Positions 19,350 through 57,854 of a stretch of 64,000 bases of DNA are shown here, in pieces. The notes beneath the pieces are model-generated. The model was not told the DNA's origin and did no database searches. It saw only the letters and a program-made list of their open reading frames with translations. Source of the DNA: Levilinea sp. (GTDB lineage: Bacteria; Chloroflexota; Anaerolineae; Anaerolineales; Anaerolineaceae). The stretch lies in contig JARKPO010000053.1 of the NCBI GenBank assembly GCA_029975215.1, positions 20,748 to 84,747 of the forward strand. The letters run 5' to 3'. A program made the translations under genes and the position numbers. The number at the start of each line of letters is the position of its first letter. The stretch's first letter is position 1.

Positions 19350-19690
19350 ATCATACAGAAAGACTGTGATGAGGACGAGTACACATCGCCCCGGCGGTAC
19401 AGAGAGCAGTGAATGGTGAGAGACTGCCCGTACAGTGATGTGGAATGGACCTCGGAGTTGCAGGGCAAACGCAAAAGCCAGTAGCCCGCGCCGGAGCTGC
19501 CACCGTTATCCAGGCAAAGGGTATCGCGACCTTCGGGTTTGCCGTACCCCAAAGAGTGAGGCTGGCCTTTTCCCCCTTGTGGTGCATCACCGCAGGGGTT
19601 TTTTGTTAACAAGGCGCACAACAGCCTAATGTGGGTGGCACCACGGACCTGACACAGCGTTCGTCCCAACAGGGATGAACGCTGTTTTTA
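19350..19690 (+). ncRNA. T-box leader (tryptophan-responsive), transcriptional attenuator
   Basis: GATGAGGACGAGTA proximal stem I, CAGAGAGCAGTG...GGTGAGAG AG-bulge/terminal loop, specifier TGG at 19446-19448, T-box GGGTGGCACCACGG (19633-19646), terminator ACAGCGTTC...GAACGCTGTTTTTA. Confidence 0.93.
19654..19690 (+). terminator. T-box intrinsic terminator
   Basis: ACAGCGTTC-g-TCCC aaca GGGAT-GAACGCTGT + TTTT. Confidence 0.85.
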
Positions 19691-48288: not shown

Positions 48289-50031
48289 ATGAACGAGATA
48301 GACCTGACCCTTCTGGAGCCTGTTCTTCAAACCTACGGCCCTCAAGGCCGCACCGCCCTTCTCCCCGCCCTACACGCCGCTCAAAACCTTTATGGGTATC
48401 TGCCAGAGCCAGTAGCGGCTGCTGTTGCCCGTGCCTTACATGTTCCCCTGGCCGATGTGCACGGCGTCATCGAGTTCTACGCCATGTTCTACCCCCAACC
48501 GGTGGCCAAAACCGTCCTGCACGTCTGCAACGACCCCGCCTGCGGCATGGCCGGGGCCGATGCGCTGTTTAAGCAGCTTGCCAGCCGCGTTGAACTGAAT
48601 CTCGACACCCCCACCGGCGCATCTGTCACCGTAGAACGCGCCCCCTGCCTGGGTCTGTGCGAACACGCCCCCGCTCTGCTGGTGCAAGGGTCCCAGGTGG
48701 CCCAGGCCGACCGCCGCTCATGGGAAGACCTGGTGCGCGGCCGCCTGCCCCGTCCCCGCACCCTTGTGGGCGGCGATGTCTCCATCCTCACCGCCAATTG
48801 TGGCAAGAATCGCCCCACCACCCTGGAAGAGTACATCCAATCCGGTGGGTATGCCGGTCTGCGCCGAGCCCTGCAAAGCTCCCCCGCCGAGGTCATCGCC
48901 GAGGTCAAGGCGTCGGGTTTGGTGGGGCGCGGCGGCGCAGCTTTCCCCACCGGTCTTAAGTGGGAAGGGGCCGCCAACGTCTCCGGCGATCCCAAATATG
49001 TGGTCTGCAACGCCGATGAAGCCGAACCTGGCACCTTCAAAGACCGCGTGCTGATGGAAAATGACCCCCACCGCATCCTCGAAGGCCTGCTCATCTGCGC
49101 CTACGCCGTCGGCGCCTCGCATGGGTATTGGTATATCCGCGGCGAATACACCGCACAGATGGAAATCGTTGCCCATGCGGTCGAAGAAGCCCGCCAGGCC
49201 GGAATCTTGGGCGATGCCATCCTCGGCTCCCCCTTCCACTTTGACCTGGAAATCCGCCGCGGCGCGGGAGCCTATATCTGCGGTGAAGAAACCGCCCTGT
49301 TTGAATCCATCGAGGGTAAGCGCGGCTTTCCCCGCATTAAGCCTCCCTTCCCCACCACCCACGGCCTGTTTGGGCGGCCTACGGTCATCAACAACGTCGA
49401 GACCCTGGCTAACCTGCCCTACATCCTCACCCACGGCGCGGCCCAATACCGCCAATTGGGCACCGAAAAATCCCCCGGACCCAAGCTCTTCTGCCTTTCG
49501 GGAGATGTGGTGCGCCCGGGACTGTACGAAGTGCCTTTCGGGGTCACTTTTGACCATTTGCTCAACGACCTGGCGGGCGGCGTGCGCGGCGGCGCGCTAA
49601 AAGCTGCCCTGTTCGGCGGCGCAGCCGGGGCTTTTGCCACCCCGCAGCACCTCAGCGTGCGCCTCACGTTTGAAGATCTGCGCGCCGCGGGCCTGCCCCT
49701 GGGATCCGGCGTCATCACCGTCTTTAACCAGCATCGCGACCTGCGCGATGTGCTCGTACGCCTGGGGCATTTCTTCGCCGACGAATCCTGCGGCAAATGC
49801 TACCCCTGCCAGTTGGGAACCCAACGTCAGTATGAAATCCTCCAGCGCGTGGCCGCGGGCAGCCCCCTGCCCGAAGATGCCGCCCGCCTGCAGGATGTCG
49901 GCTGGACCATGACCGACGCCTCTTTGTGCGGCCTGGGGCAGACCGCCGCCTCTGCCGTGCTCAGCGCCATGCGCCACTGGCCCGAACTGTTCGTCCCCGC
50001 CGCCCAATCCGCCCCTCAAGCACAGGTATAG
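48289..50031 (+). CDS. NuoE-NuoF fusion, NADH-binding (FMN/FeS) subunit of formate dehydrogenase
   Basis: NuoE-like CNDPACG...[15 protein letters not shown]; Nuo[70 protein letters not shown]. Confidence 0.94.
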
Positions 50032-50043
50032 GGAGCTGCCGCT

Positions 50044-50760
50044 ATGTCCGAAACGATTTCCCTGACCATCAACGGCCAACCCGTCACCGTACCCGCCGGA
50101 ACCACCCTGCTCAAAGCCGCCGAGCAGGCCGGCATCTCCATTCCGACCATCTGCTACCACGATTACTGCACCGCTAACGGCCTTTGCCGCCTGTGCGTGG
50201 TGGAGGTAGAAGGCTCCCGCACCCTGGTGGCCTCCTGCGTGGCCAAAGCCGCCCCCAATATGCAGGTGCAGACCCATTCTGAACGGGTCCTTCGCGCCCG
50301 CCGCACGGTATTGGAAATGCTGGAAGCCTCGGTGGATCTGTCCGAAGCCCCCGAAATCCAGGCCTTTTCCCAGGAACTGAACGCCGACCCCCAGCGCTTC
50401 CCAGACGCCGAAAAACGCCAGCCGCCCGTGGTGGATGATAACCCCATGTATGTGCGCGACTACGCCAAATGCGTCTTATGCTGGCGCTGCGTGCAGGTCT
50501 GCGCCGAAGATGCCCAATACACCTTTGCCATCAACTTCACTGGCCGCGGCTTTGAGACCCAAATTGGCACATTCTTTGAAAAGCCCCTGCCCGATACCAG
50601 CTGCGTCTTCTGCGGGCAGTGCGTGGGCGTTTGCCCCACCAATGCGCTGAAACCCAAACGGCAGTGGCTGATGGAACAGGGCTACAGCGCCGATGAAATC
50701 ACAGAGATGACTCGCACCGAGCGCCGCCGCCACAAACGCGCCCCTCTCTCCGCCGAATGA
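50044..50760 (+). CDS. 2Fe-2S / 4Fe-4S ferredoxin subunit (HoxU/NuoG N-terminus-like)
   Basis: [21 protein letters not shown]...; [11 protein letters not shown] and [12 protein letters not shown] clusters. Confidence 0.92.
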
Positions 50761-50780
50761 CCCGCCCAGGAGAACCCGCC

Positions 50781-52940
50781 ATGTTAAAACCAGACCGAAT
50801 CGTCTCCACCACCTGCCCCTACTGCGGCGTCGGCTGCAATTTGCAGCTCCACATCCAGGGCGACACCATTTTCAAAGTCACCACCCCCTTCGACGCCCCT
50901 GTCAATAAGGGCAACCTGTGCGTCAAAGGCCGCTTTGGTTACGATTTTATCTATCACCCCCAGCGCGTCACCACCCCTCTCATCCGCAAGACCCCCCAGC
51001 AGCCCGGCAGCCGCACCCAGGCCTTTGACCGTTCGGAATGGCGCGAGGTATCCTGGGACGAAGCCCTGGAATACACGGCCGACCGCCTGGTGGAAATCTA
51101 CCAGCGCGACGGTTCCCGCGCTATGGCCGCTTACTGCTGCGCCAAGGCCACCAACGAGGATAATTACCTGCTGCAAAAGATGTACCGCGCGCTTTTCCGC
51201 ACCAATCACATTGACCACTGCACCCGCCTGTGCCACGCAGCCAGTGTGGTGGCTTTGCAAATGGCGGTGGGCTCCTCCGCCATGAGCAACACCGCGGATG
51301 AGGTGGTGGACAACGACGTATTCATCCTGACCGGCTCCAACACCACCGAAAACCACCCCATCATCGCCCTGCAAATGAAGGCCGCCATCCAAAAACACGG
51401 CGCCAAATTGATTGTGGCCGACCCGCGCCGCATCGAGATGGTGGATTACGCTGTGCTGTGGCTGGCGCAGAAACCCGGAACCGACGTACCCCTCTTTTCG
51501 GCGATGGCGCACGTCATTCTCAAAGAGAACCGCTACAACCAGGAATTTATTGACGCCCGCACCGAGAATTTCGCTGAATTTGCCGCCTCGATGGAAAAGT
51601 TCACCCCCGAATACGCCGAATCCATCACCGGCGTCAGCCGCGATAAGATCATCGAAGCCGCCCGCCTGTATGCCGATGCCCGTAACGCCGCCATCTACTG
51701 GTCTCTGGGCATCCCCGAACATTCGCACGGCACAGCCAACGCCCTCAGCCTGATCAATCTGGCCCTGCTCACCGGCCACATCGGCCGCCGCGGCAACGGG
51801 CTGAACCCCCTGCGCGGGCAAAACAACGTCCAGGGAGCCTCCGATTCCGGGGCCATGCCCTGGCATTACCCGGGCTACCAGTCTGTGGCCAATGAAGAAG
51901 CCGCCCAAAAGTTTGAGCGCGCCTGGAATATCGAACCGGGCGGCCTCAACCGCAAGCTGGGCCTCACCACCACCGAGATTCTCGGCAATGTCCAGCCCAA
52001 CGGCGTGCGCGCCCTGTACATCATGGGCGAAAACCCTATGATGTCGGAACCCAATCTCAACCACACCCGCCACCAGATGGAACAGCTGGAATTCGTCGTC
52101 GCCCAGGATCTGTTCATCAACGAATCCGGCGCCTTTGCCGATGTCTTCCTGCCCGCCGCCAGTTGGGCTGAAAAAGAGGGAACCTTCACCAACACCGACC
52201 GGCGCGTCCAGCGCGTCCGTCAGGCCATCGCCCCCCGCGGTCAGGCCCGCGCCGATTGGCAGATCGTCTGCGATCTGGCCCAGCGCATTGAAAAACGCCT
52301 GGGCCGCCCCACCGCCCGCTGGGATTACACCCACCCCTCGCAGGTGCTGGAAGAGATGGGCAGCCTGGTGCCAGAATACGCCGGGGTCAAATATCACCGC
52401 ATTGAAACCCTCGGTCTGCAAGTCCCCGTGCTGAACGACGAACACCCCGGCACACCCTTCCTCTTTGCCGAAAGCTTCCCCCGCGGGCGCGGCAAATTTC
52501 ACCCCCTGGAATACGTGCCCTCCGCCGAAATGCCCGACGACGAATATCCCTTCATCCTCACCACTGGCCGCGTATTGGAACACTGGCACGGCGGAACCCT
52601 CACGCGTAATTCCGGCCTCAACGACCTGTGGCCCGAAGCCCTGATGGAGATCAACCCAGAAGACGCCGCCCGCCTGAGGATCGCACCCAACGGGCCGGTG
52701 CGCGTCACCTCGCGCCGCGGCACCATCGTGCTGCGCGCCCGCGTCACCCCCAAGGCCGTGCGTGGCGTGGTTTTCATCCCCTTCTTTTACGGCCCAGCCG
52801 CCGCCAACCTGCTCACCAATGACGTGGTGGACCCGCAAGCCAAAATCCCAGAATACAAGGTCAGCGCCGTGCGCATCACACCGGTGGAGGAAAGCGAACT
52901 GCCCGACCCACAAGCTTTCCAGAGCCGCGGACGCTACTAA
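50781..52940 (+). CDS. formate dehydrogenase catalytic (molybdopterin) subunit, Cys type
   Basis: TCPYCGVGCNLQL, KGNLCVKGRFGYDF, DHCTRLCHAASV (Cys at the active-site Sec/Cys position), GQNNVQGASDSGAMP, molydopterin-dinucleotide binding C-terminus LTTGRVLEHWHGGTLTR. Confidence 0.94.
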   Translation: MLKPDRIVSTTCPYCGVGCNLQLHIQGDTIFKVTTPFDAPVNKGNLCVKGRFGYDFIYHPQRVTTPLIRKTPQQPGSRTQAFDRSEWREVSWDEALEYTADRLVEIYQRDGSRAMAAYCCAKATNEDNYLLQKMYRALFRTNHIDHCTRLCHAASVVALQMAVGSSAMSNTADEVVDNDVFILTGSNTTENHPIIALQMKAAIQKHGAKLIVADPRRIEMVDYAVLWLAQKPGTDVPLFSAMAHVILKENRYNQEFIDARTENFAEFAASMEKFTPEYAESITGVSRDKIIEAARLYADARNAAIYWSLGIPEHSHGTANALSLINLALLTGHIGRRGNGLNPLRGQNNVQGASDSGAMPWHYPGYQSVANEEAAQKFERAWNIEPGGLNRKLGLTTTEILGNVQPNGVRALYIMGENPMMSEPNLNHTRHQMEQLEFVVAQDLFINESGAFADVFLPAASWAEKEGTFTNTDRRVQRVRQAIAPRGQARADWQIVCDLAQRIEKRLGRPTARWDYTHPSQVLEEMGSLVPEYAGVKYHRIETLGLQVPVLNDEHPGTPFLFAESFPRGRGKFHPLEYVPSAEMPDDEYPFILTTGRVLEHWHGGTLTRNSGLNDLWPEALMEINPEDAARLRIAPNGPVRVTSRRGTIVLRARVTPKAVRGVVFIPFFYGPAAANLLTNDVVDPQAKIPEYKVSAVRITPVEESELPDPQAFQSRGRY

Positions 52941-53794: not shown

Positions 53795-55720
53795 ATGCTG
53801 CCGCAAATTCAGACCTTCCTCAACCGATCCCGTCAGTTAGAAGAAGAAGGCAAAACCCTGGACGCTCTTCAAGCCGCCCAGGAAGCTCTGGACTGCGTAC
53901 GTGATCAGGAAGGATCCCTGGAGTGGGTCCACGCCCAGGCCCGCCTGGCACGTGTGTACGTGCTCACCGGCCAATACGCGCAGGCCGAAGAACATGCCGC
54001 TGCCGCCATCAACGCGCCCAACTGCCCTCTGCACGTTAAGGGTGACGCCACCCTCACTCTGGGGGTGTGCGCCAGTGAAACCGACCGCCTGCAGGAAGCT
54101 GAGGAGCTTTTTTACCGCGCTGCTGACATCTTTCGACAGGCGGACCTGCCCTCCGAAGTTGGCCGCGCCCTGCACGACCTGACCACCTGTGTTTTCATGC
54201 ACCGCGGGCAGTTCCGGCTGGCCCTCATCACCATTGAAGAAGCTGCCAGCCTGCGCACCACAGACCAAAACGACCATTGGGGCCTGCCCTGGGTGCAGGC
54301 CTACATCTACCAGTTATTTGGAGACCGCAGCCGCACACGCCAGGCTCTGGACGAACTCCTGCCCCTGATCAAACCTGGAACGCGCGTGGCAGGCGGCTAT
54401 TACTTCCTGTGGGCGCGCCAATCGCTGGACGACGGCGAATTGGATAAAGCGGCCGAATACCTGCGCCTGGGCATGCGCATCGCCACCACCACCGGATCAC
54501 CCGATCTCAACATCTGGATGCGCATGGAATACAGCCGTTTTTACCGTCTTTCTGGCGAAGCGCCGGTGGGCCTCTCCTGGGCCGAAGACGCCGTCAACTA
54601 CGCCCGCCGCGTTGCTTACAAAAGCCTGCTGGGCGCGGCCCTCATCGAACGCGCCCAGGCCGCCTGGGAGTGCGGCGATCTCACCTCGCCCCTTCAGGAT
54701 CTGCGCGAAGCCCTCGCCATCCTCGATCAGGTCGAAAACAATTTCGACGCCGCTCGGGCTGCCTTCCTGTTGGCCGCCTGGGAACAACAGCATGCCAGCC
54801 CAACAGCCCTGGAGGCCTGGAATGAAGCCGCCGAGCGCATCCTGCGGGGCGGCTACGCCTTCCTCATCGAGCGCGAGCGCCGCACCACCTTCCCCCTCCT
54901 GGCCAGCCATCTGCGCGGCCCCGGCCGCCCCGCCGCCGAAAAGCTCCTCCACAAACTGGTGCTGGTGGACCCCCCGCCCCTGCGCATCCACGGTCTGGGT
55001 CAGTTCACCGTCTGGCAGGGCCGCAGCCCCATCCCCGACCAGGTGTGGAAGCGCCGCAAAGCCGGTGAATTGTTTCGCTTCCTGCTGCTACAAGAGCAGT
55101 ACTCCGCCAGCCGCGATATTCTCCTGGACGCCCTGTGGGCCGAAAGCGACGCCGCCGCCCTCACCGACCTCTTCCATCAGGCCACCTCCACCCTGCGCCA
55201 CCTCTTAGAGCCAGACCTGCCCGATAAATTCCCCTCCCGTTATCTCAAGGTGGAAGGCGACCGTGTGTACCTGCTGCTGCCCCCTGGTTCTCACATGGAT
55301 TTTCTGGAATTTGAGCAGGCCCTGCCCCTGGCGGTTCAACGGGGAACCATTGAGCCCCTGGAAAAAGCCCTGTCGCTGTACATGGGCGAACTCTTCCCCA
55401 TGGACCGCTACAACGATTGGAGCGCCCTGCGGCGTCAGAGCCTGGAAGATCTGTACCTCAGCGGTATGCAAACCCTGGCCTCAGCCTACCTCAACAACCA
55501 TCAGGAATACCGCGCCCTGCAGTGCGCCCGGCTCATCCTTCAAAAAGACCCCTGGAATGAAATGGCTGTGTGGATTGGCATGCGCGCCCACATGCGCCTG
55601 AACAACGCACCCCGCGCCCTCCAGCTCTACCGCCAGTTGGAAGAAAGCCTGCGCAGCGATCTGAACACGCGTCCCTCCCCCGAACTGCGTGATCTGGCCG
55701 ACCAAATTCGCCAGCGGTAG
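53795..55720 (+). CDS. BTAD/SARP-type transcriptional regulator with N-terminal TPR region and C-terminal winged-helix + BTAD domain
   Basis: C-terminus RIHGLGQFTVWQGRSPIPDQVWKRRKAGELFRFLLLQEQYSASRDILLDALWAESDAAALTDLFHQATSTLRHLLEP... MAVWIGMRAHMRLNNAPRALQLYRQLEESLRSDLNTRPSPELRDL. Confidence 0.88.
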   Translation: MLPQIQTFLNRSRQLEEEGKTLDALQAAQEALDCVRDQEGSLEWVHAQARLARVYVLTGQYAQAEEHAAAAINAPNCPLHVKGDATLTLGVCASETDRLQEAEELFYRAADIFRQADLPSEVGRALHDLTTCVFMHRGQFRLALITIEEAASLRTTDQNDHWGLPWVQAYIYQLFGDRSRTRQALDELLPLIKPGTRVAGGYYFLWARQSLDDGELDKAAEYLRLGMRIATTTGSPDLNIWMRMEYSRFYRLSGEAPVGLSWAEDAVNYARRVAYKSLLGAALIERAQAAWECGDLTSPLQDLREALAILDQVENNFDAARAAFLLAAWEQQHASPTALEAWNEAAERILRGGYAFLIERERRTTFPLLASHLRGPGRPAAEKLLHKLVLVDPPPLRIHGLGQFTVWQGRSPIPDQVWKRRKAGELFRFLLLQEQYSASRDILLDALWAESDAAALTDLFHQATSTLRHLLEPDLPDKFPSRYLKVEGDRVYLLLPPGSHMDFLEFEQALPLAVQRGTIEPLEKALSLYMGELFPMDRYNDWSALRRQSLEDLYLSGMQTLASAYLNNHQEYRALQCARLILQKDPWNEMAVWIGMRAHMRLNNAPRALQLYRQLEESLRSDLNTRPSPELRDLADQIRQR

Positions 55721-55766
55721 CCCCTTTTTCGATTTTTCCCCAAAAATCCCCTCAAAAACGCCCCAG

Positions 55767-55800
55767 TTGTCAGTAAAATGTCAGCCGTTTGTTGTATAAA
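55767..55800 (+). promoter_or_regulatory. SARP-like operator (TGTCAG direct repeats) and -10 box
   Basis: TGTCAGT aaaa TGTCAGC (55768, 55779; 11-bp phasing), then 9 nt to TATAAA (55795-55800). Confidence 0.55.
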
Positions 55801-55806
55801 CAGGGT

Positions 55807-55925
55807 GTCATTGTTCCATACCTTCGCAATACCCCTCTCGCTTTGCCCCCCTCCTTTTGACGCGACCGAGGGGAAGCGTCAAAGTCCACAAGCCCCCGTT
55901 TCCGCAGGAAAAACGGGGGTTTGGC
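55807..55925 (+). ncRNA. candidate small structured RNA ending in a strong terminator
   Basis: Hairpin CTTTTGACGC...GCGTCAAAG (55854-55884), terminator CCCCCGTTTccgcaggAAAAACGGGGG TTT; no plausible ORF. Confidence 0.42.
55891..55923. terminator. terminator
   Basis: AGCCCCCGTTTccgcaggaAAAACGGGGGTTT. Confidence 0.8.
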
Positions 55926-56035
55926 CTTAATAACCCTCGTTAATTGACTCTCCCTCCGGTGTGCTATAATCTGAATCAACCTGCCCACTGCAATTTGGTC
56001 GGGCGGCCCCAACCTTGCCAAAGGAGGGTTTGTTC

Positions 56036-56419
56036 ATGCGCCTGCGTCGCGCGGCTCCCTGGTTTATCCTCGGTTCGATCTTTATTCTCATCTCGCTCTG
56101 CGGCGGCTGCACCTCGCTGCTCGGCCTGAGCGGCGGTTCGTCCAGCCCGGCCTGGAACAGCGGTTCCGGCCCCAGCGTTTCCAATCCGCTGCCGGATTCA
56201 TCAACCGATGAAAATTCCGATAGTTTCTGGAATTGGAATGACGGCGACAGCGGCGGTTGGGAGTCTGGATCTGACTCCGGCAGTTGGGATTGGGGCGGCT
56301 CCGATTCGGGCAGCTGGGATTCCGGCGGCTGGGATTCGAGCGATTCGGGCAGTTGGGATTCTGGCGGTTGGGATTCTGGGGGGTGGGATTCCGGCGGCTC
56401 TGACAGCGGTTCTTGGTGA
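56036..56419 (+). CDS. small secreted/lipoprotein-like protein with Trp/Gly/Ser/Asp repeats
   Basis: RBS AAGGAGG, hydrophobic leader ending LCGGC, then SDSGSWDSGGWDSSDSGSWDSGGWDSGGWDSGG. Confidence 0.7.
   Translation: MRLRRAAPWFILGSIFILISLCGGCTSLLGLSGGSSSPAWNSGSGPSVSNPLPDSSTDENSDSFWNWNDGDSGGWESGSDSGSWDWGGSDSGSWDSGGWDSSDSGSWDSGGWDSGGWDSGGSDSGSW
56235..56416 (+). repeat. degenerate tandem repeat encoding GSWDSGGWD units
   Basis: Repeated (c/t)GGGATTC(c/t)GG(c/g)GG(c/t)TGGGATTC units. Confidence 0.75.
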
Positions 56420-57665: not shown

Positions 57666-57854
57666 TTAGCGCCGTTCGATCAGGGTGCGCGCCAGCTGCA
57701 GGAATTCTTCCCATTCATCATCGAAGAAGTGCAGCGTCACATTGTTCAGTTCCATGTGGAAAGTGGTCTCGCCGTCCGGCTCTTCGGCCTTCCACGCCAG
57801 ATAATTGTCGGTCTCAGCCAACGTCTCAGTCTTGGGTTCCATCGGGTTGCTCAT
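57666..57854 (-). CDS. small hypothetical protein
   Basis: 62 aa, MSNPMEPKTETLAETDNYLAWKAEEPDGETTFHMELNNVTLHFFDDEWEEFLQLARTLIERR; upstream AAGGAAG RBS. Confidence 0.65.
   Translation of the reverse strand: MSNPMEPKTETLAETDNYLAWKAEEPDGETTFHMELNNVTLHFFDDEWEEFLQLARTLIERR

Follow-up and report, generated by a model that had tools for sequence, protein, structure and literature searches.

A SARP-type operator that very probably belongs to the adjacent regulator, in Anaerolineae and some other bacteria

Introduction

Activators of the SARP family carry a winged helix and a BTAD domain as a pair at the N terminus and control secondary-metabolite clusters. They bind directly repeated heptamers with a phase of 11 (or 22) bp, the 3′ heptamer being some 8 bp away from the −10 element. 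AfsR of Streptomyces coelicolor activates an adjacent small-protein gene, afsS (PMC10972967). In the AfsR-DNA complex, residues T88 and R92 make specific base contacts, and S91, R94, and K95 hold the backbone (PMC10936776). Three other activators, PimR, SanG, and PolR, have the heptamers TGGCAAG, CGGCAGG, and CGGCAAG, with 4-bp spacers (PMC3367932). In the literature on Chloroflexota, we found no previously defined SARP-type operator.

The locus described here lies in a 64-kb stretch of DNA, which we call the window. It resembles AfsR/afsS in pairing a protein with an OmpR-type winged helix and BTAD with two 11-bp-phased direct repeats just upstream of a −10 element with a poor −35 (PMC10936776, PMC10972967). 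As in AfsR, a TPR domain lies within the same protein, and the usual predicted target is a neighboring small-protein gene. Unlike our regulator, AfsR has its DNA-binding half at the N terminus and carries an NTPase (NOD) domain; its repeat, CGTT(T/C)ATCGNN, is unlike the Chloroflexota heptamer. Unlike afsS, the Chloroflexota small protein belongs to no known family, and at the window locus no protein is left and only an RNA is predicted. The heptamers of the PimR group nearly match the YGGCARt sites that we found with one type of recognition helix (H-type, below), but the PimR site consists of three repeats, lies far upstream of the −35 element, and controls the regulator of a biosynthetic cluster (PMC3367932).

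Other proteins share parts of the architecture. EmbR of Mycobacterium tuberculosis (2fez/2ff4) has the same winged helix and BTAD fold, but its DNA-binding half is N-terminal and an FHA domain takes the place of the TPRs. DnrS of Thermus thermophilus is likewise an activator from outside Actinobacteria with a C-terminal BTAD, but has an N-terminal GAF domain, and the study that describes it does not define the DNA sequence it binds (PMC5748679). MalT domain III (1hz4) folds like the N-terminal TPR half of our regulator, the presumed sensor, but MalT binds DNA through a LuxR-type domain.

Results

A sequence-only reading of the window had pointed to two heptamers phased by 11 bp and separated by 9 nt from a TATAAA, just downstream of a BTAD regulator gene. 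These elements are exactly as described (Table 1), and the stop codon of the regulator ends at 55720. No −35 hexamer is present upstream of TATAAA; an extended −10 (TGn) occurs in most relatives, and the window has TTG at that position. Thus two family traits are present, the 11-bp-phased heptameric direct repeats and a 3′ repeat about 8 bp from a −10 that lacks a good −35, the distance being 9 nt in nearly all loci.

Table 1. Features of the operator locus, in window coordinates
Feature	Position	Strand	Basis or remark
Regulator gene, 641 aa	53795-55720	+	ORF, Pfam, AF2 model, AfsR profile match, Foldseek
Codons of recognition helix α3, residues 453-471, LFHQATSTLRHLLEP region	55151-55207	+	AF2 secondary structure, AfsR alignment, covariation
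Operator half-site 1, TGTCAGT	55768-55774	+	Sequence, conservation beside orthologues
Operator half-site 2, TGTCAGC	55779-55785	+	Starts 11 bp from start of half-site 1
−10 hexamer TATAAA	55795-55800	+	9 nt (55786-55794) after half-site 2
Predicted short transcript without the relatives' small ORF, ~120 nt	55807-55925	+	Start site inferred
Conserved stem-loop, 9-bp stem, 12-nt loop	55855-55884	+	0 of 1,000 shuffles; 42 of 42 identical to Levilinea
AGGGGA at 3′ end of the loop	55869-55874	+	
Intrinsic-terminator-like hairpin directly 3′ of stem-loop	55889-55923	+	T tract weak; not flagged by consensus scan
Separate lipoprotein-operon promoter, TTGACT-N15-TATAAT	55944-55970	+	Outside the regulator's unit
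62-aa gene, usual convergent neighbor of the operator transcript	57666-57854	−	Set apart here by the lipoprotein operon

Within a single genome, the operator is not significant: TGTCAG-N5-TGTCAG occurs exactly once in the 4.3-Mb genome, compared with about 0.5 expected by arithmetic, and 14 times with one mismatch, compared with seven for a reversed-pattern control. In the 64-kb window, the operator is the top match to a matrix built from the family's operators (27.8 bits; runner-up, 6.3 bits). Two near-copies in the same genome, TGTCAGACAAATGTCGG and TGTCAGACATATGTCCG, lie 63 bp apart (L034 and L035; contig C15, bases 385 and 448) and resemble sites of a different regulator, with a palindromic TGTC-N-GACA core.

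To look for the site beside orthologous regulators, we drew on 61 relatives, a class-wide set of 396 genomes, and a family-wide set of 147, plus a scan of named genomes. That scan brought in Levilinea saccharolytica (the 95% relative) as well as Longilinea arvoryzae and Anaerolinea thermolimosa, together with two MAGs of Thermoanaerobaculales. At 41 of the 47 loci collected first, the operator adjoins the regulator, in the interval that runs from 60 nt upstream to 450 nt downstream of the stop codon. It scores 8.8-42 bits at these loci, compared with at most 5.0 bits for opposite-strand and gene-internal controls; as the matrix was trained on loci among those scored, the scores are partly circular, although the controls and the variant sites are unaffected. 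When only non-identical regulators are counted, the site adjoins 54 of 66, mostly from Chloroflexota plus two Acidobacteriota MAGs, and it is conserved down to 28% protein identity. The association also holds where the flanking genes differ. Between the window species and L. saccharolytica, the stretch from stop codon to operator is 50% identical and that from operator to −10 is 97% identical. The sequence-only reading was to be dropped if the motif both occurred at chance frequency in the genome and lacked conservation beside orthologues; the frequency is indeed about that of chance, but the conservation is there, so the two do not coincide.

The family consensus is YGTCAGT-N4-YGTCAGT-N9-TAnnnT or, with the extended −10, YGTCAGT-N4-YGTCAGT-N7-TGnTAnnnT. 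With the correct −10 spacing, this pattern has 12 matches in eight of the 396 genomes, compared with one match for off-by-one spacing and one for a reversed control. An off-spacing match in G279, TGTCAGTgaaaTGTCAGCtagTGTCAGCTAAAAT (L104), contains TGTCAG three times, and its third copy abuts the −10. At 12 of the 66 regulators, no adjacent site was detected. One such genome, G073, carries the site elsewhere, before the small ORF described below. A blind search of the site-less loci found no other phased repeats, and the TGGCAG sites predicted for three H-type regulators (L060, L061, and L069) were absent beside them, with just 167 nt of downstream sequence available at L060. Genome G130 has five operator copies (L108, L113, L114, L115, and L116), several of them before secreted or membrane proteins. 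These five sites are a small regulon, and the regulator is thus not strictly single-target everywhere. Two genomes of the same genus, G061 and G099, each have one copy, before a related membrane protein. The Thermoanaerobaculales (Acidobacteriota) MAGs (L162 and L169) have this regulator together with the operator and the small ORF; horizontal transfer or binning could account for this.

The regulator matches Pfam BTAD (PF03704, E 1.2e-15) and TPRs, and its AlphaFold (AF2) model has a mean pLDDT of 92.9. A TPR superhelix (approximately residues 1-390) is followed by an OmpR-type winged helix (396-493) and BTAD (502-640). In the model, the winged helix consists of strands at 396-399 and 405-408; helices at 420-432, 440-447, and 453-471; and a wing at 484-493. 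A profile of the orthologues matches AfsR over residues 396-633 (E 1e-18) and also picks up EmbR, and Foldseek aligned the C-terminal half with AfsR (8k60, TMt 0.76, 3.5 Å) and EmbR and the N-terminal half with MalT domain III (TMt 0.75). The order of winged helix then BTAD is that of SARPs, but the pair stands at residues 396-640, behind the TPR domain, and not at the N terminus. The protein had been described as a BTAD/SARP-type regulator. For its DNA-binding half this is apt; because the domain order is reversed, we call the whole protein SARP-like rather than a canonical SARP.

The two halves of a site vary together, and they also vary with the recognition helix. Within loci, we counted 12 mismatches between half-sites, compared with a mean of 35.5 after shuffling (0 of 10,000 shuffles as low). 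The paired variants include TGGCAG/TGGCAG, TGTAAG/YGTAAG, TGTCAA/TGTCAA, TGGCAA/TGGCAA, and TGTTAT/CGTTAT. Helix and site pair as HQATS with TGTCAG, HHATS with TGGCAG, HAIS with a final A, and PFHQ with TGTAAG. All 38 HQ regulators have sites without G at base 3, while 11 of 13 HH (or YH) regulators have G there in at least one half (Q versus H, Fisher p = 1.6e-9). Two H-type regulators (L178 and L179) have T-type sites. Isoleucine in place of threonine at the second position on from Q/H pairs with A at base 6 in three of three regulators and in no others; proline before the phenylalanine pairs with A at base 4 in three of four. When the regulator is aligned to AfsR, its Q462 (the Q/H position) matches T88, and the T/I position matches A90.

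On a maximum-likelihood tree, changes between Q and H agree with changes at base 3 in five independent cases, with none opposite and two unchanged (sign test p = 0.0625). For T/I and base 6, two of two cases are concordant and none opposite; for L/P and base 4, three of four are concordant, none opposite, and one unchanged. The pooled covariation is strong yet short of formal proof, as the Q/H test alone gives p = 0.0625 and the helix positions were picked after inspection, with the T/I and L/P pairs being few. This residue-base covariation lends support to the predicted base contacts by helix α3. Together with conservation and half-site covariation, and with Q462 aligning to the base-contacting T88 of AfsR, it argues that the regulator encoded upstream very probably recognizes the window site as its own SARP-type operator and promoter. 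The earlier proposal of a cognate SARP-style operator controlling a short transcript immediately downstream thus gains strong support from comparisons among orthologues.

At most loci, the operator precedes a small ORF of 60-87 codons (about 70 aa) that starts ~40-110 nt past it and is often followed by genes for secreted proteins. The product follows the pattern MRTxxTFxLRLLVDxxxPxxLRGxLxxV...F...LLxLL and matches no Pfam or NCBIfam family; its AF2 model (βββ-α, pLDDT 79) has no confident fold match in the PDB. The putative targets seen are thus this orphan protein, secreted proteins, or RNA, and not the secondary-metabolite clusters usual for SARPs. A model of the small protein matched all eight ORF-bearing genomes tested and had no match in the window's genome or in five other RNA-only genomes. 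The tree shows no fewer than three occurrences of the RNA-only state: in the window's group; in L004 with L005; and in A. thermolimosa, beside an ORF-bearing sister. By this placement, a stem-loop element was kept through three or more losses of the small ORF.

In Longilinea and other relatives, that stem-loop (CGGTGCG..CAGGGGA..CGCACCG) lies in the 3′ UTR of the small ORF, immediately before the terminator. Among seven stems from the family, 8 of 11 pairs show compensatory change; none of 500 shuffles reached the covariation score, and slid alignments fail. A covariance model (R1) found a held-out member (L074, 28.7 bits) and, in the 147 family genomes, gave nine matches at E < 0.005, all from genomes with the regulator and eight at the operator locus by coordinates; the ninth, in G493, is on a separate contig. 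One further locus (L008), where the AGGGGA hairpin is imperfect and the regulator sits on a long branch, was left uncounted. R1 does not find the window's own stem-loop, which is divergent (GAGGGGA, one extra base). We base its homology on position, the AGGGGA loop, the 9-bp form of the stem, and the shuffle test in Table 1. The predicted window transcript thus consists of a leader, the stem-loop, and the terminator. Compared with L. saccharolytica, the terminator is 97% and the stem-loop region 100% identical (42 of 42).

Rfam 15, searched at 55700-56100 with gathering and permissive thresholds, gave no relevant family; elsewhere in the window (19357-19671, +), there is a T-box leader (RF00230, 98.6 bits). 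We considered the AGGGGA loop as a CsrA sponge and rejected this for the window's genome, where CsrA is absent. CsrA was not found in G000, G001, G030, or G025 and was present only in G450. A search near the locus for TCCCCT as a partner of the loop gave no consistent target, and the TCCCCT matches in the regulator mRNA track conserved FPSRY codons.

Discussion

From the site, its conservation and geometry, both covariations, the ORF loss, and the retained stem-loop, all read from sequence, we infer binding, activation, a start site, and RNA production at the operator. The two phased heptamers, upstream of a −10 without −35, would make this promoter dependent on a SARP-type activator. The regulator would bind it through its C-terminal winged-helix/BTAD half, one protomer per heptamer, and stand in for the −35 contact with sigma in the manner of AfsR at the afsS promoter. 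Its TPR domain may sense a signal. In Anaerolineae and some other bacteria, this promoter would express the small orphan protein, often then secreted proteins; in the window's lineage, where the small ORF is gone, it would drive the ~120-nt RNA alone. We put the probability of this explanation as a whole at roughly 0.86.

What is new is the phylum, the conservation of the geometry, the code relating helix residues to bases, the family of small proteins, and a transcript reduced more than once to RNA alone. A SARP-type operator with its promoter geometry is now defined across dozens of genomes, and the partial amino-acid-to-base code for helix α3 predicts specificity swaps, a point left open by the AfsR structures. 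A layout like that of afsR-afsS, in which a small-protein gene adjoins the activator gene, is now placed outside Actinobacteria. The small proteins form a family, identified here, that Pfam and NCBIfam lack. The lineages in which the mRNA appears reduced to an RNA-only transcript form a natural series.

Possibly, Anaerolineaceae have a dedicated regulatory RNA under the control of this activator: repeated loss of the small ORF from its mRNA would have left behind an sRNA that consists of the 3′ UTR stem-loop, with the loop CAGGGGA, and the terminator; we hold this tentatively, at somewhat under even odds. A non-functional remnant is also a serious candidate, though one we would not call probable: the operator would be kept for other targets of the regulator and the hairpin as part of a terminator. 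The ORF is, after all, simply gone in three lineages, the search near the locus gave the loop no conserved partner, and a terminator is needed to protect the downstream gene. Yet the stem-loop is 5′ to the terminator, shows covariation, and keeps its AGGGGA; it is fully identical in two Levilinea-group genomes whose neighboring spacer is 50% identical; and the window's genome has no second exact operator.

The sequence-only reading had also allowed that the operator might control the lipoprotein operon beyond the short transcript. The operon is on the same strand, 230 nt away, and several class members do have secreted proteins encoded after the small ORF and codirectional with it. Here, the terminator-like hairpin and an independent promoter (with a 17-nt spacer in Levilinea) stand between, and in relatives the operator transcript is a small ORF and/or a hairpin-terminator element. 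As the next gene in most Anaerolineaceae relatives examined is the convergent 62-aa gene, the operon looks like a later insertion. Control by read-through is thus unlikely, and the operon is probably not a target. A lipoprotein-like small ORF at 56036-56419 (+) has a long low-complexity tail of SGSWDSGGWDSG repeats, whose number differs between the window genome and Levilinea.

Binding of the regulator to the repeats is a prediction, and a different protein could bind them, their position by the BTAD gene reflecting synteny only. We consider this very improbable, since the half-site letters track the regulator's recognition helix at independent points of the tree and the association persists with other neighbors and in Acidobacteriota MAGs. 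A chance direct repeat, which one exact copy per genome would fit, is refuted by conservation beside distant orthologues.

Directly upstream of the regulator in the window is an NADH/formate dehydrogenase-like operon (48289-52940, +). Other Anaerolineaceae (L002-L005) likewise have formate-dehydrogenase-like sequence upstream of their regulator gene, and the activator may thus be tied to redox metabolism.
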